A stretch of DNA of 46,795 nucleotides from Pseudomonadota bacterium (GTDB lineage Bacteria > Pseudomonadota > Alphaproteobacteria > GCA-2731375): assembly GCA_027623205.1 (NCBI GenBank), contig JAQBYC010000028.1:1-46795 (forward strand), read 5' to 3'. Numbering within the stretch: the first letter of the stretch is position 1; every line of letters begins with the position of its first letter. Position numbers and translations under genes: made by a program. This document shows positions 28,739 to 41,671 of the stretch, piece after piece. Below the pieces are notes generated by a model that searched no databases, was not told the origin of the DNA, and saw only the letters and a program-made list of their open reading frames with translations.

Positions 28739-30265
28739 TTAGAACTGAACCAAAATTTCCGCCCGGGCGCCGGAACCATTGTCCCGGCCTTCAAGATAGG
28801 AGACGAAGCCATCGAGTTGCAATTGCACGCGCTGACCAATGGCCTGTTGGAATTGCACCGTAAATGCCGCTGCATCGGTGCCCGCGCCGTCGTCTTTGAA
28901 CAGATTCCGGGTGTTGTCTTTCAGGCCGGCGATTTCCAGCACGACGTTACGCCGGTGATTGTCCCAGAATGCCTGATAGCCCATGGCGAAGCCGGCAACC
29001 TGGGTGGCGGCGTTGTTCAGTTCGGACAGAAAATTGCCGAGGCTGGGAGACGCGAAGGAGATGCCCAGGGGCGCCAACGGACCGCCCAGAATCGGCTCCC
29101 GGCTGACTTGGGTGTAGCGGTCAAAGCCATAAAACGGGTTAATATAAACCACGTCATCGGAACTGTGGGGGGTCCACGAGATTTCGGCGGAGACCAGGAC
29201 CCCGTCAGCCAGCTGCGCGGTATCGGCATCTTCGGCGAACGAGGCATTGATGCGGTATGTGGTGTTGAAACTGGCTGACCGGGACCAGGGTGTCCAGGCG
29301 CGTTGGGCGGCAGAGAGGCCGACCCATATACCATCGCCGCCCGTGGGGTCGCCGCCGTCATCATCCACCGCGACGAAATCCAGGCCCCATGTGGTCGTCG
29401 GATCATCCGCCTGCAAGAACAAGCCATATAAACCACCCGGCTGGTTTAACCGTTCCCGGGTCGCCGGCGTGCCGCGATCGATGGAGGCCCAGGCATACAA
29501 ACCCGTTACGCGGATGTTGGAAAAGCCGGGCGCGTGTAAATTATTACGCACGACGCCAACGGCATCCAAGACGTCGTTGATCATGATTCCTTCTTGAAAG
29601 GTGATCTGCTGCCGGCCTACGGAAAAGCCGTAGTCAATCAACTTGTTGCCATTGGGGTCAAGGGATGGGAACAGCGATCCAAAATCACCTTCACAAAAGG
29701 CAGTGCGCAGGAATACGCCGGCCTCCGAACGACCGCCTTCCTCGCCGCGATTTGATTCCCAGCTATAGCGGGTGAAGTTGGTGGAGCGGTTTTTATCAAG
29801 GGGCGACACGCCAACGATGCATTTGTCGGTTGTGGTCAATTGCAGGTTCGCAAACAAGTCCAGGCGGGTTGCCAGTTCGGTGTTTCGACCCGGCGTTCCT
29901 ACGGACTCATAAGTCTGTATCGCGGTTCGCCAGGTCCCGAAACCCCACAAGCAGGGCGTAAACACGGCACCGGTTGCCACTTTTATGCCTTGGGGAATAT
30001 TGCCGTTGCCAAGAAATTTGCAGCCCATTTCGATGGGCAACTCCGGCCGCTCGGGCGGGATGACATAGGGCAGCGGCTTGTCCGACAGCCGTGGCACCGG
30101 CGTGGTTTCGCCCAGTGGGTAAAATATACTGTTGGCCCGAACATCGGCCGCCCCGCCAAAGGCCACAAAAACAACCGAGGTTACCACTGCCGTCAGGAAC
30201 AAGGGCAGCGCGGTTTTGCCAATCCAGCCATTCCGTTTTTGTCGCGTCGTCATCATCGGTGCCAT
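28739..30265 (-). CDS. Outer-membrane beta-barrel protein, 508 aa
   Basis: A basic N-terminus and long hydrophobic stretch (about 18-40) ending in ADVRA look like a signal peptide. The mature part is rich in alternating amphipathic strands, aromatic residues and Gly/Asp loops (LDLFANLQLTTTDK, YGFSVGRQQITFQEG, ISWTPHSSDD). It ends in Phe (EILVQF), the usual outer-membrane insertion signal. Four Cys are present, which is unusual for porins. It lies 122 bp downstream of the pentahaem cytochrome gene on the same strand, so the pair is probably one transcript. I cannot place it in a named porin family; MtrB-like, alginate-export-like and general porin roles are open. Confidence 0.72.
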   Translation of the reverse strand: MAPMMTTRQKRNGWIGKTALPLFLTAVVTSVVFVAFGGAADVRANSIFYPLGETTPVPRLSDKPLPYVIPPERPELPIEMGCKFLGNGNIPQGIKVATGAVFTPCLWGFGTWRTAIQTYESVGTPGRNTELATRLDLFANLQLTTTDKCIVGVSPLDKNRSTNFTRYSWESNRGEEGGRSEAGVFLRTAFCEGDFGSLFPSLDPNGNKLIDYGFSVGRQQITFQEGIMINDVLDAVGVVRNNLHAPGFSNIRVTGLYAWASIDRGTPATRERLNQPGGLYGLFLQADDPTTTWGLDFVAVDDDGGDPTGGDGIWVGLSAAQRAWTPWSRSASFNTTYRINASFAEDADTAQLADGVLVSAEISWTPHSSDDVVYINPFYGFDRYTQVSREPILGGPLAPLGISFASPSLGNFLSELNNAATQVAGFAMGYQAFWDNHRRNVVLEIAGLKDNTRNLFKDDGAGTDAAAFTVQFQQAIGQRVQLQLDGFVSYLEGRDNGSGARAEILVQF

Positions 30266-30332
30266 CTTAAACTCGCCTCTCCGATTCGCCGGTCTTCAAC
30301 ACGCGTTTTTGCCGCCGTACGTCTTTGTTACC

Positions 30333-30362
30333 GCCGCCACACGGTCGCCGCACTTTGGCGGC
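30333..30362 (-). other. Stem-loop between pentahaem cytochrome and barrel genes
   Basis: The arms GCCGCCA (30333-30339) and TGGCGGC (30356-30362) form a 7-bp GC-rich stem with a 16-nt loop in the 122-bp intercistronic space. No T run follows on the minus strand. It may modulate barrel expression relative to the cytochrome, or be chance in GC-rich DNA. Confidence 0.3.
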
Positions 30363-30387
30363 TGACCGCAGGATTTCGTCGTGCTAC

Positions 30388-32451
30388 TTATTTCACGTCA
30401 ATGGTCAGATTTTCTTCGTAGAGAACTTCACGGCCCGCAACCACCGCGTCGCCAGCGGCGCGGGGGCTGATGCCGTAGTCGAAACCAACGACCTGAATGG
30501 CGCTGATCAGGTTGATGGGGAACATCTGCGCCAGCAGTTCAAGCTTGGCGTTGTAGGGCCCTTTGCCCGTTAGCTCATCGCCGTCGATCTGGAACTTCGC
30601 AATCCGGTGGCCCAGGGCCTCGATGCCTTTGCGGTGATTTCTTAAGACCGTGGGTTCACCGGTCAGGATGAGGGATGACCGGGTTGGCCGCAGGAAGGGC
30701 AAAGAGGTTGTCGAATAGGGTATGGTCACCGCCCGCTCTCGCTCGCCACCGCGGATATTTCGCACCAGGAAGCGGGATTGCAGGTTAAACAACTGGGTAT
30801 CCAGGGGCAGTTCACCTGCGTGCACAAAGGCCGATTCGTTGTCTCGAACATCGCCGTTGGGATCCGTATCGCCAGACTGAAAGACCACCTTGCCATCCCC
30901 GTCCACCACCGTGACGCGTAGCCAGACCAGGCGCTCGCCGGAAAATCCGGTTGGGGTGTTGTGCCCCTCGGTAATGTTTGAAACCTTGGCCTGTATTTCG
31001 ATGCCACCGCGGTCTGCCCGCGTTGTCTTCACATCACTCAAAAGATAACCGTTCCGCAGAACTTCCAGACGTTTTTCCCGGACCAACGCCAGCCGCTTGA
31101 ATTGTATGTTCAGGATTTCCCTTGCGTCGTAACGGGCATCCACGGAATCCCATGCTTTGGGAAATTGATAGTTCTCGGGCACGTCATCTTCGAATTTGTC
31201 CGTGCCCCAGCCGGCTGCGACATCAAAGGTCAACCAGTTCGCCAGAGTGGCCAGTTGTTGCGCCTCGGCGTTGTGCGGAAAGATACCCGGATGCACCAGC
31301 GAATAGTCAGGGCCGGCCATGATATGATTGGTTAGCTTGCGGGACTTGGTTGGCACCCCGCCGACAACGGCCGCAGGTCCCTCATGATACCCCGAAACGA
31401 TGCCCTGAACCTTGCCCATGTGGCAGTCCTGGCATGAGATACCTTTGGCGGCAGCTGGCGACGCCCGGTATTCGCTGAACGCTTCTTCCAGGCGGAAGCC
31501 GTTCAACAGGGTCACGTCGTGGCAGGTGCCGCAGAATGTGGAGGTTGATATTTCCTTGAATTCGATGGCTTCCGTATGAATTTTGCGGCCCGGCTCGTCC
31601 GCCTTCGTGACAACCCGGTATTCCTGGCGGTTGTCCAACACGCGCTTCAGTTCTTCGTTGCCCTTCGGACCATAGACTGGCTGCAACAAATCGCCCTCGA
31701 CCAAGGCAATACGGCCGCTGGCTTTGTTGTAGATATTTGCGACCCGGTGACAAACGATACAGGTGATGCCCTCGCGCGATGTCGGATGCCGCTCCAGATT
31801 GGAAATCTGCGTCGGCTCCTCCATGTTCATGCCGACCTGATTATGGCAGCGAATGCAAAAATCACCATTGGTGCCGTTCACCTGTAAATTGATGAAATTC
31901 TGCAGCGCCATATAGGCAGGACTAAGCTGGGCATAGGAATGCTGCGAGACCGCCCATTCTTCAAAATGCCGGGGATGACAGGTGCCGCAGGTGGTCGCGG
32001 ACGGATAGCGGCTCTCCGCAAACAGCAAGGCATGTTCCTTGCCGACTTTGCTCAAGGATCCTGTGCCTGCGGCTTTCTCGCCGCCGCTGTCGTTCTTCAA
32101 CAGATCCTTGTCGTCATTGTCATCTTTTTCCAACAAGTCCTTGCCGTCTTTGTCGTCATCGTCTTTGTCCAACAGCTCGTCGTCGTCCTTCTTGGCTTGG
32201 GCCAAAAGCAAAGGATGGGCGGTCGAGGTTGCGGCGGACCGTGGTGCGGAGATCCTCGGCGCGATGCCGGTTTGCGAGATGGCCGCGGATAACGTGGATT
32301 TGGTATGTGTCGGCGCATCGACCGCCGGCTTGGCTGCGGCCGAGCCGGCGAGCATTGGCGCCAGAACAAGCCCAGTCAAAAGGATACTAAAGGCCGTGAC
32401 CACCGCGCCGGTATCGGATCGCTTGCCGTACCAATTGATTTTCTGCGTCAT
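30388..32451 (-). CDS. Pentahaem c-type cytochrome (c554-related) with Asp/Lys-rich linker, 687 aa
   Basis: After an export signal (hydrophobic 17-36, likely cleavage near AGSAAA) comes a low-complexity Asp/Lys segment (residues 87-121, DELLDKDDDDKDGKDLL-type). Five haem motifs follow: CGTCH 155, CIRCH 199, CIVCH 231, CGTCH 307 and CQDCH 340. The C-terminal 300 residues lack haem sites. They form a probable beta-sandwich with GHNTPTGFSGERLVWLRV, a pattern seen in C-terminal domains of c554-type multihaem proteins. The first haem spacing (CHPRHFEEW) is c554-like. ATG 32451 is chosen over 32466 as the start of the signal peptide. It is divergent from the plus-strand redox genes and upstream of the outer-membrane barrel gene. 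Confidence 0.87.
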   Translation of the reverse strand: MTQKINWYGKRSDTGAVVTAFSILLTGLVLAPMLAGSAAAKPAVDAPTHTKSTLSAAISQTGIAPRISAPRSAATSTAHPLLLAQAKKDDDELLDKDDDDKDGKDLLEKDDNDDKDLLKNDSGGEKAAGTGSLSKVGKEHALLFAESRYPSATTCGTCHPRHFEEWAVSQHSYAQLSPAYMALQNFINLQVNGTNGDFCIRCHNQVGMNMEEPTQISNLERHPTSREGITCIVCHRVANIYNKASGRIALVEGDLLQPVYGPKGNEELKRVLDNRQEYRVVTKADEPGRKIHTEAIEFKEISTSTFCGTCHDVTLLNGFRLEEAFSEYRASPAAAKGISCQDCHMGKVQGIVSGYHEGPAAVVGGVPTKSRKLTNHIMAGPDYSLVHPGIFPHNAEAQQLATLANWLTFDVAAGWGTDKFEDDVPENYQFPKAWDSVDARYDAREILNIQFKRLALVREKRLEVLRNGYLLSDVKTTRADRGGIEIQAKVSNITEGHNTPTGFSGERLVWLRVTVVDGDGKVVFQSGDTDPNGDVRDNESAFVHAGELPLDTQLFNLQSRFLVRNIRGGERERAVTIPYSTTSLPFLRPTRSSLILTGEPTVLRNHRKGIEALGHRIAKFQIDGDELTGKGPYNAKLELLAQMFPINLISAIQVVGFDYGISPRAAGDAVVAGREVLYEENLTIDVK
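32089..32193 (-). repeat. Asp/Lys-rich repeat coding segment in pentahaem gene
   Basis: Residues 87-121 of the pentahaem cytochrome are built from imperfect repeats of DDKD(L)L(E/D/K)KD. The strongly acidic, flexible segment separates the signal peptide from the haem domain. The decahaem cytochrome of the same island carries a comparable acidic repeat linker of different sequence. Confidence 0.7.
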
Positions 32452-32939
32452 GGCTATCCGTCCCATCGCTGTCCGCCCAATTGACCTGTCAGTTCGACGC
32501 TCTCTTCAACTGTTAGATTCGCCTGGTCGTTGTATCCAGCGCCAGATGGTTCTGACCCTCGCGCTCACTATGCTAGATAAAGCGCCAGAACTGTTTCCCA
32601 ACTTTCAAATTAAGCCAAATCCCCCACAAGCTCTCGCTGCATGCTTATCGTATCCAAATTGCTTGGTCATTGAAATAGTTTTGCTGCCGCAGCCGGCGGA
32701 ACCTAGACCATGGGAATTTGGCACAGTACAGAAAGCCATTTGATCAGAAGCCCATTTGAATAAATTTGCCGTCCCACAATGATAATAAAACAGCGCTATC
32801 AGCGCGGGTTGGTATAGGCGCTGGAAGGGCCTGTTTTGTATTGCTGCCAGCGCATGGGCAGATTAAAGACTATCGTCGCCGCGCCCTTGCCGGACTATGC
32901 TGCCGGAGAACTTTGATCGCTTCAGATAAGGTGCCCATC
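32452..32939. promoter_or_regulatory. Divergent regulatory region between pentahaem and Ldh2-type genes
   Basis: This 488-bp space contains no convincing gene; a frame open on the plus strand from 32766 is the upstream extension of the dehydrogenase frame. It must hold the promoters of the minus-strand cytochrome/barrel transcript and the plus-strand dehydrogenase. A direct repeat CCATTTGA occurs at 32736-32743 and 32752-32759, 16 bp apart. AAGG at about 32928 precedes ATG 32940. The DNA is AT-richer than its flanks around 32590-32800. No canonical FNR or CRP palindrome was found. Confidence 0.5.
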
Positions 32940-34010
32940 ATGCAAATACCAGCCGACCGCCTAACCAATCTTGCCGAAGCCATCTTCCAGCGAGGGGGCG
33001 CGGACGATGGGTCGGCGGCTCAGGTAGCGGACAAGTTGGTTGAGGCAAATCTGTTCGGGCATGACAGTCACGGCATTGGCATGGTGCCCGCCTATGTCTT
33101 GGGCATTCAACAGGGGGAACTGAAACCGCGCAATGAGCTATCCATCGAACAGGATCATGGCGCGTTCCTATTGCTGGACGGCAACGCGGGATTCGGCCAG
33201 GTGGTCGCGAAGGCGGCCATGGAGCTGGCTATTGCCAGAGCACGGGAAATGGGCGTCGCGGTGGTCGGATTGAAGAATTCATACCATATCGGCCGGGTCG
33301 GGGCCTGGGGAGAGATGTGCGCGGCGGCCGGCTTTATCTCGATCCATTACGTCAACGCTTTTTCGCCAAATTCCCTGGTGGCGCCTTTTGGCGGTTCCGA
33401 TTCCCGTTTCACCACCAATCCTTATTGCACTGCCCTGCCGGCCAGCAAGGGCGCCGATCCAATCGTGTTGGATATGGCAACCAGCCGCGTCGCCATGGGC
33501 AAGGTCCGCGTTGCCCATAACCAGGGTGTGCAGATGTTGCCCGACGCCTTGATCGATCATGAAGGCAATCCGACCAACGATCCTGGCGTCATGTTTTCGG
33601 AACCCAAGGGCGCATTGCGATCCATGGGGTTGCATAAGGGCTATGGCCTGGCGGTGATTTGCGAGGCCCTCGCGGGCGCCTTCACGGGCGGCGGGGTATT
33701 TGGCCTGGATCATGTGGCGCCGGGTCGTATTATCAACAATATGCTAACCGTTTTGATTGACCCGGATGCCTTTGGCCACCGCCAGGCGTTTGATGCGGAA
33801 GTCGACAAATTTACCGCCTGGGTAAAGGCCTCACCGCCCGCGCCGGGGGTTGAACAGGTGATGGTGCCGGGAGATCCGGAGCGGAAATCAAAGGCCGAAC
33901 GGCTGGCCAACGGCATACCCTTGGACGACACAACTTTTGCGGAACTATTGACTGCCGGCGCGGCGGTCGGCCTTGATCGGGGCGAGGCCCTGCGCATCAT
34001 TGGCAATTGA
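32940..34010 (+). CDS. Malate/L-lactate dehydrogenase (Ldh2/YlbC family) NAD(P)-dependent oxidoreductase, 356 aa
   Basis: The family signature NLFGHDSHGIGMVPAY with the catalytic His44 is present. So are GVAVVGLKNSYHIGRVGAWGE, the NAD-binding DMATSRVAMGKV and LHKGYGLAVICEALAGAFTG. This family reduces 2-oxo acids or dehydrates/oxidises related compounds (malate, ureidoglycolate, sulfolactate, 2,3-diketogulonate, delta-pyrroline-carboxylates), so the substrate is open. ATG 32940 has AAGG 8 nt upstream and starts at the conserved N-terminus. It precedes the electron-transfer operon by 240 bp on the same strand and could supply NAD(P)H to it, but that is inference. Confidence 0.9.
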   Translation: MQIPADRLTNLAEAIFQRGGADDGSAAQVADKLVEANLFGHDSHGIGMVPAYVLGIQQGELKPRNELSIEQDHGAFLLLDGNAGFGQVVAKAAMELAIARAREMGVAVVGLKNSYHIGRVGAWGEMCAAAGFISIHYVNAFSPNSLVAPFGGSDSRFTTNPYCTALPASKGADPIVLDMATSRVAMGKVRVAHNQGVQMLPDALIDHEGNPTNDPGVMFSEPKGALRSMGLHKGYGLAVICEALAGAFTGGGVFGLDHVAPGRIINNMLTVLIDPDAFGHRQAFDAEVDKFTAWVKASPPAPGVEQVMVPGDPERKSKAERLANGIPLDDTTFAELLTAGAAVGLDRGEALRIIGN

Positions 34011-34153
34011 ATACAGGGGCCAGTCCGGCGGGAGCAACTCTGGCGACAGCATTGATTGCCGCAACAACAGATGATCGTCTGGGCGGCCAGACCGGGGACA
34101 AGTTGGGCGCCGTGCAAATTGCAGTGGAATTCTAAAGGCTATAAGCCGTCAGC

Positions 34154-34182
34154 TTGGCATTTTGAAAGATGGTTTGTAATTT
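34154..34182 (+). promoter_or_regulatory. Possible sigma-70-type promoter of the electron-transfer operon
   Basis: TTGGCA (34154-34159) and TAATTT (34177-34182) are separated by 17 bp, in an AT-rich patch about 70 bp upstream of the flavoprotein ATG at 34251. The -35 box is a good match and the -10 box a weak one. The 240-bp gap after the Ldh2-type gene makes a separate promoter likely. Confidence 0.35.
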
Positions 34183-34250
34183 GCTAGTGTAATTGGCTAC
34201 GCTGGCTGCGAGCCTGAATAAAGGCGTGGCAAAACGGGGGGCATGGAACG

Positions 34251-35525
34251 ATGATCGGGACGGAGGCGTTTCAAGTCATCGGCGGGTTGATTATTGCCGC
34301 CGCCTTCGCGCAGGTGGCCGTGCTGTTGTATGGTACGTGGCGTGGTGCGGCGCTGGCTCGCGTGCAACAGGGTTTGGCGAATGATTTATTACGCCGCCGG
34401 GTTGATGCCGAGACTTTGAGCCGCGACATGGAGCGGAAAATGACCACCGCTACCTGGTCGGGGGTGCGGAAATTTCGTATTCGCGACAAGGTCATTGAAG
34501 GCGGCGATATTTGTTCCTTCTACCTTGTGCCCCATGACGGCAAAGCGCTACCGCCGTTCTTGCCAGGCCAGTATTTGACCTTCAATTTACGCCTGCCTGA
34601 GCGCGAAAAACCACTCGTGCGTTGCTATTCGCTTTCGGACAGTCCGTTGCAGACAGATTATTACCGGGTCAGTATCAAACGTCAGGGGCCGCCGCCGAAA
34701 CAACCCGATGCGCCGCCGGGACTGTCATCGACTTTTTTTCATGATCGTTTGCAGATTGGTGACATCGTTGATGTTAAGGCGCCGTCAGGTAATTTTTTCC
34801 TGGATTTGGCTAAGCATCGCCCGGTCGTATTGATCGGCGGCGGCGTTGGCCTGACCCCGATGATTTCCATGCTGAATGCGATTTGTGAAGCAGGCCCGCA
34901 GCGAGAGACCTGGTTCTTCTACGGCGTTCGCAATGGCGAAGAACATATCATGCGCGAACATTTGGACGCGCTGGAGGCCGAACACGAAAACGTTCATGTG
35001 CGGGTTTGTTACAGTGATCCCAAGGATGGCGAAGTAGAAGGTGAAGGATTTCACCATGGCTGCCGGGTCGGTGTCGATTTGTTCCAAAAGGTTTTGCCGT
35101 CGAACAATTACGAGTTCTATATCTGCGGCCCGCCCCCGATGATGGAATCCTTGACGGCAGACTTGCGGGAATGGGGCGTGCCGGATTCGGATGTATTCTT
35201 CGAGGCATTCGGTCCTGCCAGCGTGAAGAAAACGGCGCCGGCGCCGGACTCTGATGTGGCCGCGGCCACGGGGCAGATTGTGACATTCACCCGCTCAAAC
35301 AAGACCATGACCTGGGATGGCCGCCATGGCTCGATCCTGGAGCTGGCGGAGGCCAATGGTGTTGAATTGGATTTCGGATGCCGGGCGGGTAGCTGTGGCA
35401 CCTGTATCACGGCCGTGAAAAAGGGCGAGGTAAGCTATGTCGAGAAACCAGGTTCGTTACCCGAATCCGGTTCCTGTCTGGCATGTATTTCAGTGCCTAA
35501 ATCGGATCTGGCCCTGGATGCCTGA
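34251..35525 (+). CDS. Membrane-anchored FAD/NAD(P)H:[2Fe-2S] oxidoreductase, 424 aa
   Basis: An N-terminal hydrophobic helix (about 8-30) anchors a ferredoxin-reductase-type module: FAD motif RCYSLSDSP (near 125), NAD(P) site VVLIGGGVGLTPMISML (near 190) and CGPPPMMESL. A plant-type [2Fe-2S] domain closes the protein with Cys-x4-Cys-x2-Cys (CRAGSCGTC) and a fourth Cys in SGSCLAC. The architecture resembles Hcr, phenol-hydroxylase reductases and similar NADH-dependent electron-transfer proteins, with an added membrane anchor. Since the domains have no export signal beyond the anchor, they should face the cytoplasm. It is the first gene of the five-gene plus-strand operon; the next start is 70 nt downstream. 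Confidence 0.9.
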   Translation: MIGTEAFQVIGGLIIAAAFAQVAVLLYGTWRGAALARVQQGLANDLLRRRVDAETLSRDMERKMTTATWSGVRKFRIRDKVIEGGDICSFYLVPHDGKALPPFLPGQYLTFNLRLPEREKPLVRCYSLSDSPLQTDYYRVSIKRQGPPPKQPDAPPGLSSTFFHDRLQIGDIVDVKAPSGNFFLDLAKHRPVVLIGGGVGLTPMISMLNAICEAGPQRETWFFYGVRNGEEHIMREHLDALEAEHENVHVRVCYSDPKDGEVEGEGFHHGCRVGVDLFQKVLPSNNYEFYICGPPPMMESLTADLREWGVPDSDVFFEAFGPASVKKTAPAPDSDVAAATGQIVTFTRSNKTMTWDGRHGSILELAEANGVELDFGCRAGSCGTCITAVKKGEVSYVEKPGSLPESGSCLACISVPKSDLALDA

Positions 35526-35595
35526 CGATTTACCGCTGACGGTTGAATCAACAGCGTCCAATGGGATTGGCGACAATCAAAAGGTGATAAACAAA

Positions 35596-36615
35596 ATGCG
35601 GGGACTTCTTGTGATTACGAAAACACGCACGGTTATACGTGGACTGGCGCTGTTCGGTGCGCTGGCGTTGGGCTCTGGCATTGCGCACGCGCAAGAACTG
35701 CATTTGGACCCGGCAAAAGTAATGGGCCCCGATGCTTGTGGCGAATGCCATAAGTCCTCTGTCGAAGCGTGGAAAGGTAGTCATCATTTTTCGACCTTCA
35801 AAACCCTGCCGAAGGCAAAGGAAGCCCGTGCCATTGCGGATAAAATGGGCCTGAAACGGATCAAGGCAGGCAGTGATTGCCTATCATGCCATTTCACCTC
35901 GGCCATGGTGAATAGCAAAATCAAGCCCATCGCAGGGATCACCTGTGAATCCTGCCATGGCGCCGGCCGCGACTGGATCAAGGTCCATAGTGATTTTGGC
36001 GGCAAAGGCGTGAAGGCCGAGAACGAGTCTGCGGCGCACAAGATTGAACGCTACAAACAATCCGAAGATGCAGGCATGATCCGGCCCGGTAACCTTTATC
36101 AAGTGGCCAAGAATTGCTTCAGTTGCCATACGGTGCCAAATGAAAAACTGGTCAATGTTGGCGGTCATGCGGCCGGCAGTAACATTGAGCTGGTTGCCTG
36201 GAGCCAGGGCGAAGTCCGCCATAATGTCTGGTACAGCAAGGAAAATCGTGTTTCACCCATTGCGCGTCTGCGCGTGATGTATCTGGTTGGCCGGGCCCTT
36301 GACCTGGAATTCGCCCTGCGGGGCGTTGCAGAGGCGACCGAGAAGGCCGATTACGCAGTAAAAATGGCCAAGCGGGCGAAGAACGCGCGCGAGCGGATAA
36401 AGACGATTGCCGAATTGGTGGATGCACCGGAATTGATGGCCATGTATTCCGCCGCCAAGTCAGCCAAATTAAAGTTGAACAACAAGGCCCAATTAACCGC
36501 CGCGGCGGAGGAGGTTGCCCGTCATGCCCAGGCCATGGCCAGCAAGTATGACGGCAGTACATTTGGCGGCCTTGATAAGATTTTGCCCGGGCCCAAAAAT
36601 TTCAAGGGGAAATAG
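35596..36615 (+). CDS. Tetrahaem cytochrome c554-like protein, 339 aa
   Basis: A signal peptide (hydrophobic 14-32, cleavage after AHA) precedes four CXXCH sites: CGECH 48, CLSCH 95, CESCH 117 and CFSCH 174. An HHF motif at 63-64 and KSSVEAWKGSHH are typical of the cytochrome c554 family. The C-terminal half (about 220-339) has no haem and is predicted helical, Ala/Lys-rich. The protein should be periplasmic and shuttle electrons. ATG 35596 is chosen as the signal-peptide start; the frame open upstream from 35437 overlaps the flavoprotein. It follows the flavoprotein by 70 nt and precedes the Fe-S fusion gene by 57 nt. Confidence 0.88.
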   Translation: MRGLLVITKTRTVIRGLALFGALALGSGIAHAQELHLDPAKVMGPDACGECHKSSVEAWKGSHHFSTFKTLPKAKEARAIADKMGLKRIKAGSDCLSCHFTSAMVNSKIKPIAGITCESCHGAGRDWIKVHSDFGGKGVKAENESAAHKIERYKQSEDAGMIRPGNLYQVAKNCFSCHTVPNEKLVNVGGHAAGSNIELVAWSQGEVRHNVWYSKENRVSPIARLRVMYLVGRALDLEFALRGVAEATEKADYAVKMAKRAKNARERIKTIAELVDAPELMAMYSAAKSAKLKLNNKAQLTAAAEEVARHAQAMASKYDGSTFGGLDKILPGPKNFKGK

Positions 36616-36672
36616 GCAGCCACGGGCGGTGCCGGCATAAGGTCGGGGGAGGGGCGATAATGGTTATCAGCT

Positions 36673-38451
36673 GTGGTTGAGGCGGTCACGATACAGCGGC
36701 CACAGCGTTGGGATGCGCCTTTTTCCGACGACATGGACACCATTGATGTGGAACGTATCCTTGCATTGGACCCGTTCCGCGAGATGGACCGCGACCGTTT
36801 TCCCACCAGCCTGTCGCTGACCGGTATCATTCGTAACGATATGCGTATCGTCAAATGCCAGGACGGTGACATCGTTATGCGCGAAGGCGACTACGGCAAT
36901 TCCGCCTTTCTGGTAGTCAAAGGCCAGGTCCGGGTCATCTTGCGACCAGGGTTGCCGGAAACCATGTTGGGCCGGGCGCCCAGCCAAAAGAAGAGCCTGA
37001 TGCAGGCCGTGGCGCAATTGTGGCGCAACCCTTCGTATCCGGAGGTGCGGGGCACTTATAGCGGCGGGGAAAGCAAAGGTACGGCCAGCCGGGCGGGTGC
37101 CGATCAGCAGGCCCGAATCTTTCTTCAGGACGTGCCAGCGGTTCTTGACCAGCACCGGACCGCCACCTTGGTTGCGGGCGATATGTTCGGCGAAATTGCC
37201 GCCCTTGGGCGGACCCAGCGCACGGCGTCGGTGATTTCCGATGGTTCCTCGGAATTGCTGGAAATCCGCTGGCAAGGTTTGCGTGATATCCGGCGCCGGG
37301 TTGATGATTTCCGCGAGCATGTGGATCAGCTTTACCGCGAACGCAGTTTAGCGTCGCACCTGCGGGCCACGCCGATGTTTCAACATCTGGACGAAGCCGC
37401 GATTGCCCGGATCGCCGCAGAAACCTTGTTCGAAACCTATGGTGATTTCGACTGGCATACTCAATACCAACGCGACCGGGACGAAAGTTTCAACCACCGC
37501 TTGGCTGGGGAGCCTGTAATCGTGGCCGAGGGCGATTATCCCGACGGCTTGTTATTGGTGCGGGCGGGATTTGCGCGGGTTAGCCAAAGTGTCAACAACG
37601 GCCATAGAACGATCCGCTATATTGGTCGGGGCGCGGTCTTTGGCATGGCCGAGATTGTCCACAACTGGTCTGAATACACCGGCAAAGCGGGGGTTGCCGG
37701 CGAGGGCGAGGCGGGCGGGCTCCCAGCAAAAACCCTGCATGCCACGCTGCGCGCCTTGGGATATGTGGATATTCTGCGGGTTCCGACGGCGGTGATCGAA
37801 GAATTGGTGCTGCCCACCCTGTCTGGCGAGGCTTTGGCGGAATATGGCCGGTTGGACGAGCGCCCCGACGAGGCGAAAGCATCCGAAGGCAATGAGACCG
37901 GTGTTGACCGATTGGTTGAACCGGGCATGTTGGAATTTTTGGTCGAACATCGCTATATCAACGGCACGGCAACCATGTTGATGGACCTGGACCGTTGCGT
38001 ACGCTGTGATGAATGCGTTGTGGCCTGCGCCCGTGCGCATGACAACAATCCCCGCTTTAATCGCCATGGTCGCCGCCATGATCATTACATGGTGGCCAAT
38101 GCCTGCATGCATTGCATGGATCCGGTCTGCATGATCGGGTGCCCAACCGGCGCCATTTACAGATCTTCGCCAGGTGGCCAGGTTGTCATCAACGATATGA
38201 CCTGTATCGGTTGCGCCACCTGTGCCAATTCCTGCCCTTACGACAATATCCGCATGGTTGAGGTGCGCGACGGCACGGGCGCCTTCATTCGCGACACGGT
38301 GACAAACGCGCCGATCGTCAAGGCGTCCAAATGTGATCTATGCATTGATCAGCCCGGCGGACCCGCCTGTCAGCGCGCCTGCCCGCATGATGCGTTGAAG
38401 CGGGTGGACATGCAGGATTTGTCCGATCTTGGAAGGTGGCTGAACCGGTGA
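36673..38451 (+). CDS. Fusion of two cyclic-nucleotide-binding domains with a four-cluster [4Fe-4S] ferredoxin domain, 592 aa
   Basis: Residues about 55-205 form a CRP-like cyclic-nucleotide-binding domain with a canonical phosphate-binding cassette FGEIAALGRTQRTAS (172-186), including the key Arg. It is interrupted by a 50-residue insert (about 100-150). A second, degenerate copy spans about 275-375. The C-terminus has 16 Cys in four motifs: C442/445/448/452, C478/481/486/490, C511/514/517/521 and C554/557/566/570. This is the pattern of the DmsB/PsrB-type electron-transfer subunits. No signal or Tat motif is seen, so it should be cytoplasmic. The start GTG 36673 is uncertain; ATG 36733 is an alternative. 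The stop overlaps the cytochrome b start by 1 nt. Confidence 0.88.
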   Translation: MVEAVTIQRPQRWDAPFSDDMDTIDVERILALDPFREMDRDRFPTSLSLTGIIRNDMRIVKCQDGDIVMREGDYGNSAFLVVKGQVRVILRPGLPETMLGRAPSQKKSLMQAVAQLWRNPSYPEVRGTYSGGESKGTASRAGADQQARIFLQDVPAVLDQHRTATLVAGDMFGEIAALGRTQRTASVISDGSSELLEIRWQGLRDIRRRVDDFREHVDQLYRERSLASHLRATPMFQHLDEAAIARIAAETLFETYGDFDWHTQYQRDRDESFNHRLAGEPVIVAEGDYPDGLLLVRAGFARVSQSVNNGHRTIRYIGRGAVFGMAEIVHNWSEYTGKAGVAGEGEAGGLPAKTLHATLRALGYVDILRVPTAVIEELVLPTLSGEALAEYGRLDERPDEAKASEGNETGVDRLVEPGMLEFLVEHRYINGTATMLMDLDRCVRCDECVVACARAHDNNPRFNRHGRRHDHYMVANACMHCMDPVCMIGCPTGAIYRSSPGGQVVINDMTCIGCATCANSCPYDNIRMVEVRDGTGAFIRDTVTNAPIVKASKCDLCIDQPGGPACQRACPHDALKRVDMQDLSDLGRWLNR

Positions 38452-39269
38452 TGACTTTCGCCAGGCGCCGTTGGTTGAACGGATTTATCACTCTGTTGGC
38501 GGGCGCCGGTTTGGTGGCTTGGTACACCGCATACGATGTCGCGCTTTATCAGCCGGCTTTTCTAACCGGTTGGTTGCTGCTCGCGGTTATTCTGGTTTTG
38601 ACCCTCTACAACGGCCGAAAGAAGTTATCAATGGTGCCCTTGGGGTCGGCGTCGGCTTGGCTGCAATGGCATATCTATTCGGGTTTTCTGGCTATTTTCA
38701 TATTCGCGCTGCACATAGGTTGGAGCGTGCCAAACGGAATTCTGGAACGAATTCTGGCGCTGTTTTTCATCGCGGTCGCCGGCAGTGGACTGGTCGGAAT
38801 TTATTTATCTCGGCGCTATGCGCGCATGTTGACCCGGCGTACCGAAGAAGTGGTATTGGAAAGAATACCGCAGTTTATCGCCGAACTGCGCGCGCAAGCC
38901 GAAGATCTGGCGCTTCAATCCGCGGTTGAAACCGGTTCATCCACGATCGCTGATTTTTATGGTAACCGCCTTTCTTCCTATTTCGCGGCGCCCAGGAACA
39001 TGCGATTGCATTTGCAGGGTTCCCGCCGGGCCTCGTTCGCGCGGATGACTGATATGAACATCATGACCCGATACCTGAACGATCAAGAGATGGTCTATGC
39101 CGAGAAATTGCGCCTGTTGGTTGAACGCAAGGACCGGCTGGACTACGCCCATGCCTTGCAAAGCGCCCTGAAGGCATGGTTGTTCGTTCATCTGCCCGCC
39201 ACCTATGGCTTGATCCTATTGGCCCTGCTGCATCTGGTTTTGGTCTATTCCTTCGGTGGGTCGCGCTGA
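38451..39269 (+). CDS. Five-helix membrane cytochrome b-like protein, 272 aa
   Basis: Five hydrophobic helices are visible (about 10-30, 38-55, 70-92, 100-120 and 243-267), with a 120-residue polar domain between the last two. Two His-x13-His pairs lie in helices three and five: His74/His88 (WHIYSGFLAIFIFALHIGW) and His247/His261 (VHLPATYGLILLALLH). This spacing places each His at opposite membrane faces, as expected for two stacked b-haems. I could not assign it to a named family. Its start overlaps the preceding stop by 1 nt (TGATG), and its stop overlaps the decahaem start in the same way, so the three proteins are made in step and are likely one complex. Confidence 0.83.
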   Translation: MTFARRRWLNGFITLLAGAGLVAWYTAYDVALYQPAFLTGWLLLAVILVLTLYNGRKKLSMVPLGSASAWLQWHIYSGFLAIFIFALHIGWSVPNGILERILALFFIAVAGSGLVGIYLSRRYARMLTRRTEEVVLERIPQFIAELRAQAEDLALQSAVETGSSTIADFYGNRLSSYFAAPRNMRLHLQGSRRASFARMTDMNIMTRYLNDQEMVYAEKLRLLVERKDRLDYAHALQSALKAWLFVHLPATYGLILLALLHLVLVYSFGGSR

Positions 39270-41671
39270 TGTCCGAACCTTTGCAAGCGCTTGGTTATCG
39301 CGACAGCCCCTATCTCCGCCCGAACCAAAATTGGGTTTGCGGTCATGCCTCCCAGGGATGCCCGTGCGAGATCGGTCCTGATAAAGGCGGGCATTGCCGA
39401 AGCGGCTATGAATGCGATCCCGTGCGGGTCGGCGATCGCTGGAATTGCACCCGCTCGCAGCTTTCAGGTGGTCCGTGCGCGGACGGTCCCCTGGCGGACG
39501 GCACCTGTTGCCGGCAAATACCGTTATGCCGGCCGGTTCGCAGTTGGCGTGGGCGGCGCGGCGCCGTTATGCGTTGGCTGTTGGCGGTGGTGGCGGGTCT
39601 GTTGATCCTTGTATTGGCCGGCGGTTATCGCACGGCCTTCATCAATCCAGGTGAGTTGTCGTTTCAGCACGCTGAACTGACCGATTGCGGCTCCTGTCAT
39701 GCAGCCTTCCACGAAGGGGTCAGGGGTTGGCTGCGCGCTGCCTGGTCGGATAATATTGTTATGGACGAGAGCAAACCCTGCATGGCCTGCCACAAGATGG
39801 CCGGTCGGGGCCAGTTGGTGCACAGTCTGCCTGCCGAATCTCTTCAAGCCTTGAGCATGAATGTGGCGCCAGCCACCGCTGGCGGGCGCAGCGTTGGCGT
39901 GCAACTCGCCAATCTGGCATTCGGCAAACCCGCAATAAACAGTGAAGCTCTTCCGTGTATGACCTGTCACAGCGAACATAAGGGAGCGGAAAGTAATTTA
40001 GCGAGCCTTTCCGATGATCGCTGCAACACCTGCCATCAGGTGCAATTTCATAGTCTTGCCTCGGGCCATCCAGACTTTGCGCGTTATCCTTACGAGCGGC
40101 GGACGCCATTGCAATTCGATCATACCAGCCATATCGATAAACATTTCCGCGATGCCAAGATGGCCAAAATGGCGCCGGGTGAATGCCGTGATTGCCACAA
40201 GACCGATAAAAACGGCCGCCTTATGGAGCTGAAATCGTTTGAAACAAGCTGCGGCGCCTGTCATGGCGAACAGGTGGCCGGTGCCGGGCGCGCCAGTGCC
40301 AAGGGCATGGCAATATTTGCCGTGCCCGGCCTGGATGTCGCCGGCTTGCGCGACCAGGGTGCGGCAATTGGCGAATGGCCCGAATTCGCCGACGGCACGG
40401 TGCCGCCCCTGATGAATTTATTGCTCTCTGCGGATCCGGGCTATGGCGCGGCGAACGCTGTCTTTAAGGCTATCGATGATCCGATGGATCTGTCGGAAGC
40501 CAATGCCGAGCAACTGGCTGCGGTTGAGACATTGGCCTGGAGCGTAAAATCGTTGTTGTTCGATCTTCGCACCAAGGGCGTCGCCGCACTGCACGCGCGC
40601 CTGCAAGGAATTTTGGGGCGCCCCCTGTCGGCGGCGGAAAAGGCCGCGCTAACGGCTTTGTTGCCCGTTGACGCCATCGCCGCAGCGCAAAAAGAATGGT
40701 TCCCGGCGTTGGCGGTTGAAATACCCCGGCAACGGGCCGGTGAAGTGGTGTTGATGCCGTCCGACAAGGCGCCGGATGCTGCCCGGGAAGATAACGGGGC
40801 AGGCGAGACCTCGGACAAGAAAGACGCTGACGGCGATGCCGAGATCGATACCGGCAAAAAAGATGCCGATGACGAAATCAGCACCGGCAAGGACGGCGAC
40901 GACAAGGAGATCGCCACGGGCAAGGACGACGAGATCGATACGGGAAAAAAGGATGATGATGACGAAATCAGCACCGGCAAGGACGACGACGAAATCGCCA
41001 CCGGCAAGGACGACGACGAAATCGCCACCGGCAAGGTCGATGACGAAATGAAGGATGCAACTGACAGCGCGGACCGCGCTTTGGCACCGGTCATTGCCGT
41101 GGCCACTGGGGAAGATTGGAATGTTTCCGGTGGCTGGTATCGTGACGATTTCGTCCTGCGCTATCGGCCCACCGGGCATGCGGACGCCTTCATTCGTGCC
41201 TGGCTGGACCTGACTGGCAAGGCGGGTCTGCGGCGAGAGGAAAGCGGCCAGGTATTCGAAACTCTGATCGACGCCAAGGCGCCCGGATTGTGCGGTAAAT
41301 GCCATTCCGTGGACGAGCAGGCGGATGGCGGCCTATTGATCAATTGGCGGGCATATCATCCGGCGGATGGTTTGAAGAAATCAGTACGCTTTTCCCATGC
41401 CGCCCATTTCAGCCTGTTGGATGAACGGGGCTGCCTGACCTGCCACGCCCGGGACGACAAGGCGGACTATGCCGCCGCTTTCAAGGATCGCAACCCCGCG
41501 ACCTTCGCCGCCAACTTCAAACCTTTGCCACGGGCGGTTTGCGCCGAATGTCATACGGCCGCCAAGGCCGGGAACAAATGCCTGACCTGCCACAACTACC
41601 ACCTGGGTGTCTTCCTGCCGGTAGCGGCCCATACCGAAGGCATGCTCAAGGAAGTTTCAAATAAACGCTAG
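39269..41671 (+). CDS. Decahaem c-type cytochrome with Cys-rich cytoplasmic head and acidic repeat linker, 800 aa
   Basis: Residues 1-87 contain ten Cys (24, 31, 33, 43, 49, 60, 70, 80, 81 and 87) without CXXCH, in repeated G-P...G-x-C patterns, followed by a basic RSWRGRRG stretch. One transmembrane helix (101-120) comes next. The periplasmic part has ten CXXCH sites at 140, 171, 230, 252, 306, 328, 675, 722, 758 and 771. The first six and last four are separated by about 340 residues that include seven E-I-x-T-G-K acidic repeats (525-589). The topology suggests a metal- or cluster-binding cytoplasmic head joined to periplasmic haems. ATG 39269 overlaps the cytochrome b stop. The 3' end overlaps the opposing radical SAM gene by 15 bp. 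Confidence 0.87.
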   Translation: MSEPLQALGYRDSPYLRPNQNWVCGHASQGCPCEIGPDKGGHCRSGYECDPVRVGDRWNCTRSQLSGGPCADGPLADGTCCRQIPLCRPVRSWRGRRGAVMRWLLAVVAGLLILVLAGGYRTAFINPGELSFQHAELTDCGSCHAAFHEGVRGWLRAAWSDNIVMDESKPCMACHKMAGRGQLVHSLPAESLQALSMNVAPATAGGRSVGVQLANLAFGKPAINSEALPCMTCHSEHKGAESNLASLSDDRCNTCHQVQFHSLASGHPDFARYPYERRTPLQFDHTSHIDKHFRDAKMAKMAPGECRDCHKTDKNGRLMELKSFETSCGACHGEQVAGAGRASAKGMAIFAVPGLDVAGLRDQGAAIGEWPEFADGTVPPLMNLLLSADPGYGAANAVFKAIDDPMDLSEANAEQLAAVETLAWSVKSLLFDLRTKGVAALHARLQGILGRPLSAAEKAALTALLPVDAIAAAQKEWFPALAVEIPRQRAGEVVLMPSDKAPDAAREDNGAGETSDKKDADGDAEIDTGKKDADDEISTGKDGDDKEIATGKDDEIDTGKKDDDDEISTGKDDDEIATGKDDDEIATGKVDDEMKDATDSADRALAPVIAVATGEDWNVSGGWYRDDFVLRYRPTGHADAFIRAWLDLTGKAGLRREESGQVFETLIDAKAPGLCGKCHSVDEQADGGLLINWRAYHPADGLKKSVRFSHAAHFSLLDERGCLTCHARDDKADYAAAFKDRNPATFAANFKPLPRAVCAECHTAAKAGNKCLTCHNYHLGVFLPVAAHTEGMLKEVSNKR
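40841..41035 (+). repeat. Seven tandem E-I-x-T-G-K acidic repeats in the decahaem gene
   Basis: The repeat unit encodes EI(D/S/A)TGK followed by two to four Asp. The order of the variable residue is D-S-A, then D-S-A-A, which indicates duplication of a three-unit block. The last two units are identical 27-bp tandem copies (40982-41008 and 41009-41035), a sign of recent slippage or unequal exchange. The segment is a flexible, strongly acidic linker between haem domains. Copy-number variation between strains is expected. Confidence 0.88.

Follow-up and report, generated by a model that had tools for sequence, protein, structure and literature searches.

What do the seven redox genes between positions 28739 and 41671 of contig JAQBYC010000028.1 make together? 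The window, that is the whole analysed stretch of 46,795 nucleotides (assembly GCA_027623205.1), comes from a marine alphaproteobacterium, and the interval holds these seven genes plus one of Ldh_2 type. An earlier note on this DNA had proposed that electrons could cross the envelope along a route connected with NAD(P)H. We propose that the genes encode a cyclic-nucleotide-gated inner-membrane NAD(P)H:multihaem-cytochrome oxidoreductase, similar to the NADPH oxidases (NOX) and with an optional outer-membrane extension, a reading to which we give a probability of about 0.5. The cluster is real and widespread; it was predicted earlier as the cluster type PCC4, and it is uncharacterised. Its cofactor sites and their conservation, as well as the linkage of the genes and the fold of the barrel, were obtained from sequences or structural models.

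The seven redox genes and 19 c-type haem sites listed by the earlier note were confirmed on their strands by open reading frames, Pfam domains and counts of the CXXCH motif: five in the pentahaem, four in the tetrahaem and ten in the decahaem cytochrome, while shuffled sequences gave at most 0.05 motifs per protein. The signatures for [4Fe-4S] clusters, FAD/[2Fe-2S] and a di-haem cytochrome b also hold, as Pfam domains or as conserved Cys and His in alignments. The last three genes do overlap by 1 nt each, as seen in the TGATG at 38449-38453, between the genes of the cyclic-nucleotide-binding (CNB) Fe-S protein (cnb) and the b-type protein (cytb), and at 39267-39271, between cytb and the decahaem gene. 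The ATG of cytb lies at 38451, sharing 1 nt with the cnb stop.

The genes co-occur across many phyla, contrary to the outcome that the earlier note had named as refuting its proposal, namely that they never do so. Homologues of cnb have these partner genes as neighbours in Alpha-, Gamma- and Zetaproteobacteria, Planctomycetota, Verrucomicrobiota and Nitrospinota, and further hosts are a Nitrospirales metagenome-assembled genome (MAG), SAR324, Poribacteria, Zixibacteria and Latescibacterota. Hwanghaeella grinnelliae (L064) and Bythopirellula polymerisocia (L128) are hosts that have been cultured. Among named relatives, the nearest are marine Rhodospirillaceae/Alphaproteobacteria MAGs; judging from their isolate names, these may come from oxygen-poor waters. 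With a threshold of E<1e-60, the cnb protein was found in 13/398 Pseudomonadota genomes, 11/195 Verrucomicrobiota genomes and 27/199 Planctomycetota genomes (about ten of these being partial or weaker matches), and in one of the 78 genomes in the class of a Mariprofundus MAG host. Among the 26 loci where cnb is flanked on either side by 7.5 kb or more, the NAD(P)H reductase gene (fnr) is universal (26/26). There, cytb and the decahaem gene are each present in 25/26 and the tetrahaem gene in 18/26; the pentahaem and barrel genes, always as a pair, occur in 13/26, and all seven genes in 13/26. Because of these counts, and because some genomes have the core without a pentahaem gene, fnr-cnb-cytb-decahaem looks like a self-standing core and the pentahaem-barrel pair like an optional add-on that mostly co-occurs with it. 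What the earlier note took for one seven-gene unit is really this core, with the outer-membrane pair as an option.

The pair itself has an uneven distribution. In the window's genus it usually lies on a separate contig from cnb, and it is present in 10/11 cnb-positive genomes of the genus or family (G004 has a partial barrel); pentahaem was not found in the two genus or family genomes without cnb. Planctomycetota without a local pentahaem gene encode one elsewhere in the genome. Verrucomicrobiota genomes of one type, nine in all, lack the gene, as do most cnb-positive sampled Pseudomonadota; only 3/398 Pseudomonadota have it, two of these three being cnb-positive.

Two distant relatives (L045:6964-12129 and L046:6816-12092) retain the cnb-cytb-decahaem trio, with no porin seen near either core. 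L045 encodes a single protein of ~800 aa in which a FAD/NAD(P) Pyr_redox domain is joined to two CNB domains and 4Fe-4S domains; beside its gene lie one for a b protein of HX13H type and one for a decahaem cytochrome that has an FHA domain in the cytosol. By the Rosetta-stone argument, this fusion speaks for electron transfer between NAD(P)H and the CNB-Fe-S protein. The universality of fnr supports the same link, and we consider NAD(P)H-linked transmembrane electron transfer quite likely.

Alignments of 35 to 97 sequences per protein locate the cofactors along such a path. The reductase combines FAD_binding_6, NAD_binding_1 and Fer2 domains behind a transmembrane (TM) segment at residues 5-30; its RCYS FAD motif, its GGxGxTP motif and C377, C382, C385 and C412 are 100% conserved in 80 sequences, and its nearest NCBIfam profiles are the NAD(P)H-oxidising Hmp, BenC and PaaE. 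The b-type protein, which has no sequence relatives in Pfam, NCBIfam or PDB, contains exactly four invariant His (79, 93, 252 and 266), that is two HX13H pairs. Both WX3HX13H motifs (W75-H79-H93 and W248-H252-H266) and an SGxxG (117-121) are 91-100% conserved; the count of five TM segments, from hydropathy and alignment, is approximate. Beyond its five CXXCH, the pentahaem protein has six more invariant His (145, 176, 297, 381, 392 and 502). The tetrahaem protein, a match to Cytochrome_C554 (E 5.5e-15), has four conserved distal His (64, 131, 191 and 209), and the decahaem protein has ten alongside its ten CXXCH. All 19 c haems could therefore be bis-His, the pairing being inferred, with no open catalytic haem evident, which fits a wire more than an enzyme. 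A nitrite or hydroxylamine enzyme, at which the c554 likeness hints, was rejected, as there is no catalytic signature and every haem has candidate distal ligands.

Cyclic-nucleotide gating, at which the earlier note had merely hinted, gains real support from pocket residues and neighbouring cyclases. The CNB-Fe-S protein has a cNMP_binding match at E 2.2e-23 and Fer4 domains, including Fer4_11 (PF13247) at residues 471-576 (38.1 bits vs a cutoff of 26.2), and its 16 cluster Cys are conserved at 98-100% in 97 sequences. Its CNB profile matches the cyclic-nucleotide domains of PKA-R and PKG in PDB. Domain 1 carries the canonical phosphate-binding cassette FGE(I/L)AALxRxPR with the Glu and Arg that mark a cyclic-nucleotide receptor (E174 in 96/97, 99%; R183 in 95/97, 98%); the pocket of domain 2 has no Arg. 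An open search for recurrent neighbours returned class III nucleotidyl cyclases as the commonest family, present at 15/57 loci vs 0.88 expected from background density (Poisson P 5e-14, a value uncorrected for relatedness among the loci and inflated by it). Cyclase identity was confirmed by Pfam in all nine copies scanned. The neighbour cyclases keep both metal Asp and the transition-state Asn/Arg, and some have a sensor domain (CHASE2 or 7TMR-DISM); only the copies of Alphaproteobacteria and SAR324 retain the adenine-selecting Lys, several others having D or H in its place. The window's genome has 19 cyclase domains elsewhere. Literature searches on CNB plus multihaem and on cyclase plus multihaem returned nothing relevant. 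On these residues and neighbours, we lean slightly towards a cyclic nucleotide such as cAMP switching the electron wire. More tentatively, the Fe-S relay subunit may itself be the receptor, served by a dedicated cyclase in several lineages, so that second-messenger gating would extend across many phyla.

The decahaem protein was correctly called by the earlier note, which overlooked its cytosolic N-terminal domain. Eight Cys, 97-98% conserved, form two C-x8/9-C-x9-C-x5/6-C-P-x-R repeats (residues 20-95; window 39269-39590), followed by an Arg-rich stretch and a TM segment at 97-125. The domain is retained even in divergent core-only versions. It has no Pfam match, and its lone PDB match (E 0.59) is not meaningful. 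From the 4+4 pattern, it could hold two Fe-S clusters or zinc. Both the decahaem gene (window 40900-41100) and the pentahaem gene (32080-32210) also encode Asp/Lys-rich low-complexity stretches, with repeats such as DDEISTGKD.

The outer-membrane barrel named by the earlier note is borne out by its AlphaFold2 (AF2) model (single chain, pLDDT 83, ~18-19 strands), and the protein is conserved across 36 sequences despite having no Pfam match. The model resembles OprD-family, MOMP and AlgE channels (Z 24-28 over ~330 residues, root-mean-square deviation (rmsd) ~3), OccK7 (4frt) being the best match (VIA Z 28.3, rmsd 2.9, 329 aligned residues). MtrB and other large barrels are not among the VIA matches listed, which is no proof of absence. 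Barrels of the OprD/MOMP/AlgE type are 18-strand pores, narrower than MtrB, so the modelled barrel is probably too narrow to fully sheathe the pentahaem protein and looks more like a small-solute channel than a haem sheath. Gene co-occurrence and cofactor conservation give good support to the NAD(P)H-linked trans-envelope route. The pentahaem model (pLDDT 77) consists of a disordered D/K-rich N-terminal region, a helical haem domain and a beta-sandwich domain. It shares the pentahaem fold and C-terminal beta domain of the pentahaem cytochrome c552 of Thermochromatium tepidum (5ze8; Z 22.9, 352 aligned residues, with 18% identity over the structural alignment and a sequence match at E 2.7e-16).

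According to the machine we propose, electrons would pass from NAD(P)H to FAD and [2Fe-2S] within the reductase and then to the four [4Fe-4S] clusters of the CNB protein, possibly with participation of metal sites in the 8-Cys domain. From there, two b haems would carry them across the membrane to the ten bis-His haems of the decahaem protein, and the tetra- and pentahaem carriers would deliver them to a partner at the outer membrane or further out, for which the 18-strand barrel would serve as entrance or point of contact. A cyclic nucleotide bound to CNB domain 1 would switch the Fe-S relay. By analogy with NADPH oxidases and ferric reductases, we mildly favour a net outward direction, in which NAD(P)H supplies an acceptor in the periplasm or outside the cell, although the chain could also run in reverse.

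Several points weigh against this proposal. Direction cannot be read from sequence, the b protein may have a quinone site, and the reductase may use NADH or NADPH. No biochemistry was found for any cluster member. There is no cyclase in the window and none was detected at the loci of its congeners; the cyclases of Planctomycetota and Verrucomicrobiota have no canonical adenine-selecting Lys. The 15 cyclase loci stem from a small number of independent lineages, with roughly four or five arrangements among them, and the excess is still notable at that number.

Features of the interval 28739-41671 and cyclase genes near related clusters
Feature	Position or distance	Strand	Basis
Outer-membrane beta-barrel (PCC4 porin), ~18 strands, OprD/AlgE/MOMP-like	28739..30265	-	AF2 model, fold matches
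Periplasmic pentahaem cytochrome c	30388..32466	-	5 CXXCH, AF2 model, c552 fold match
Ldh_2 malate/lactate dehydrogenase-type gene, unrelated to the redox system	32766-34010		
Membrane-anchored NAD(P)H reductase (fnr): N-terminal TM, FAD, NAD(P), C-terminal [2Fe-2S]	34251..35525	+	Pfam
Periplasmic tetrahaem c554-like cytochrome, signal peptide	35596..36615	+	4 CXXCH, Cytochrome_C554
Cytosolic electron-transfer protein (cnb): two CNB domains, four [4Fe-4S]	36673..38451	+	Pfam
Five-TM di-haem cytochrome b-type inner-membrane protein (cytb; PCC4 IMP)	38451..39269	+	Conserved motifs
Inner-membrane-anchored periplasmic decahaem cytochrome, cytosolic 8-Cys N-terminal domain	39269..41671	+	10 CXXCH
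Cyclase, six Planctomycetota loci	0-190 bp from fnr		
Cyclase, six Verrucomicrobiota loci	0.9-2.9 kb from decahaem		
Cyclase, remaining loci (SAR324, two Alphaproteobacteria)			
All cyclase loci: L084, L089, L090, L093, L122, L128, L097, L103, L104, L106, L110, L125, L066, L041, L112			

Some related loci differ in arrangement. At L032:13511-14302, the Ldh_2 and reductase genes are separated by a CobS (cobalamin synthase) gene; several congeners have an open reading frame of similar size in that place, and the window has no such gene. A second cluster copy is found in some congeners, L035 (G005:C24) and L038 (G003:C70), the latter being a divergent version with ~40-44% identity. The clusters in L087, L094 and L113 come from public MAG records with implausible titles (Akkermansia muciniphila, Klebsiella pneumoniae), which are probably mislabelled.

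The published PCC4 model reads the same genes differently (He, Barco, Emerson & Roden 2017, PMC5566968): an extracellular electron source, for example Fe(II) or Mn(II), would be oxidised at the outer membrane and the electrons conducted inwards, via porin and periplasmic cytochromes, to the b protein and the quinone pool. A porin-cytochrome pair is indeed present, HX13H b proteins can be quinone-active and a Mariprofundus MAG carries the cluster. However, a quinone route has no need of the NAD(P)H reductase that accompanies every well-flanked locus, many genomes have the core and no pentahaem gene, and the cluster gene is rare in the class of that MAG. RuBisCO was found in 6/53 hosts, just two of them high-scoring, so RuBisCO-based lithoautotrophy is not a common trait; this count and the 1/78 of the class weaken Fe(II)-lithoautotrophy as a general role. 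We regard this model as rather unlikely for the cluster at large.

The NAD(P)H-linked machine could instead work backwards, with proton-motive force driving external electrons through the b haems to form NAD(P)H, which was the earlier note's own alternative. The anatomy would be identical, and two transmembrane b haems could exploit the membrane potential. We think this improbable, given that the closest reductase profiles are NAD(P)H-oxidising and that most hosts lack RuBisCO, so that no particular demand for NAD(P)H made from outside electrons is obvious. It is also unlikely that the system is a periplasmic reductase, one of whose cytochromes acts on a soluble substrate entering through the barrel. 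The likeness of the barrel to small-solute channels and the extra beta-sandwich domain of the pentahaem fold would suit it, but the conserved His suffice for 19/19 bis-His haems, and neither CXXCK nor any known catalytic signature was found in the window proteins by motif counts and NCBIfam profiles.

If the gated oxidoreductase we propose is real, an unstudied machine common to many phyla joins NAD(P)H in the cytosol to multihaem cytochromes outside the cytoplasm, and a cyclic nucleotide opens or closes that link. In the literature searched, we found no multihaem system in which a cyclic nucleotide is described as directly controlling an electron-transfer subunit. The role of PCC4 would then shift from iron oxidation in iron oxidisers to that of a general electron valve, mostly in bacteria lacking RuBisCO.

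PCC4 was predicted by bioinformatics alone, with the hypothesis that electrons are conducted across the outer membrane, inwards from an extracellular donor to quinone (PMC5566968). The window cluster has every sequence feature given for PCC4 Subgroup II in the available text of that paper: periplasmic cytochromes with 4, 5 and 10 haems; a porin gene, which the model and OprD/AlgE fold support here; a five-TM inner-membrane protein (IMP) with SGxxG (S117-G118-G121) and two WX3HX13H; a PF13247 Fe-S gene upstream of the IMP; and a redox gene upstream of that for the tetrahaem cytochrome, here 34251-35525 just ahead of 35596-36615. The earlier note knew of no characterised complex with this composition, which is correct biochemically, but the composition had already been published as the predicted PCC4. 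That model ends at quinone, ours at NAD(P)H. The word 'cyclic' does not occur in the paper's main text, although CNB domains may already appear in its Supplementary Figure 4, and in its available text we found neither a link with cyclases nor an 8-Cys domain nor genomes that have the core without a porin. The core/optional split, the census of haem ligands, the barrel fold, the cyclic-nucleotide pocket with its cyclase neighbours and the 8-Cys domain are what this analysis adds.

A 2017 study of Verrucomicrobia concerns a different, porin-octahaem system. As in MtrAB, MtoAB and PioAB, a barrel gene lies beside that of a periplasmic multihaem cytochrome, but the window cytochrome has 5 haems instead of 10, the barrel ~18 strands, and the pentahaem protein scores far below the MtrA/DmsE-family decahaem profile (TIGR03508, 27.9 bits vs a cutoff of 192.2). 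Hmc, Tmc and DsrMKJOP also combine a periplasmic multihaem cytochrome, a membrane cytochrome b and a cytosolic Fe-S protein; to our knowledge, they lack a CNB domain, an NAD(P)H reductase and a porin. NOX and the ferric reductases (FRE) differ from the window system in that the latter uses separate polypeptides, adds 4x[4Fe-4S] and multihaem proteins and has a b protein with no ferric-reductase Pfam match. What they share is a b-type protein for two haems whose HX13H pairs lie in two helices, a cytosolic FAD/NAD(P)H dehydrogenase and an extracytoplasmic acceptor.

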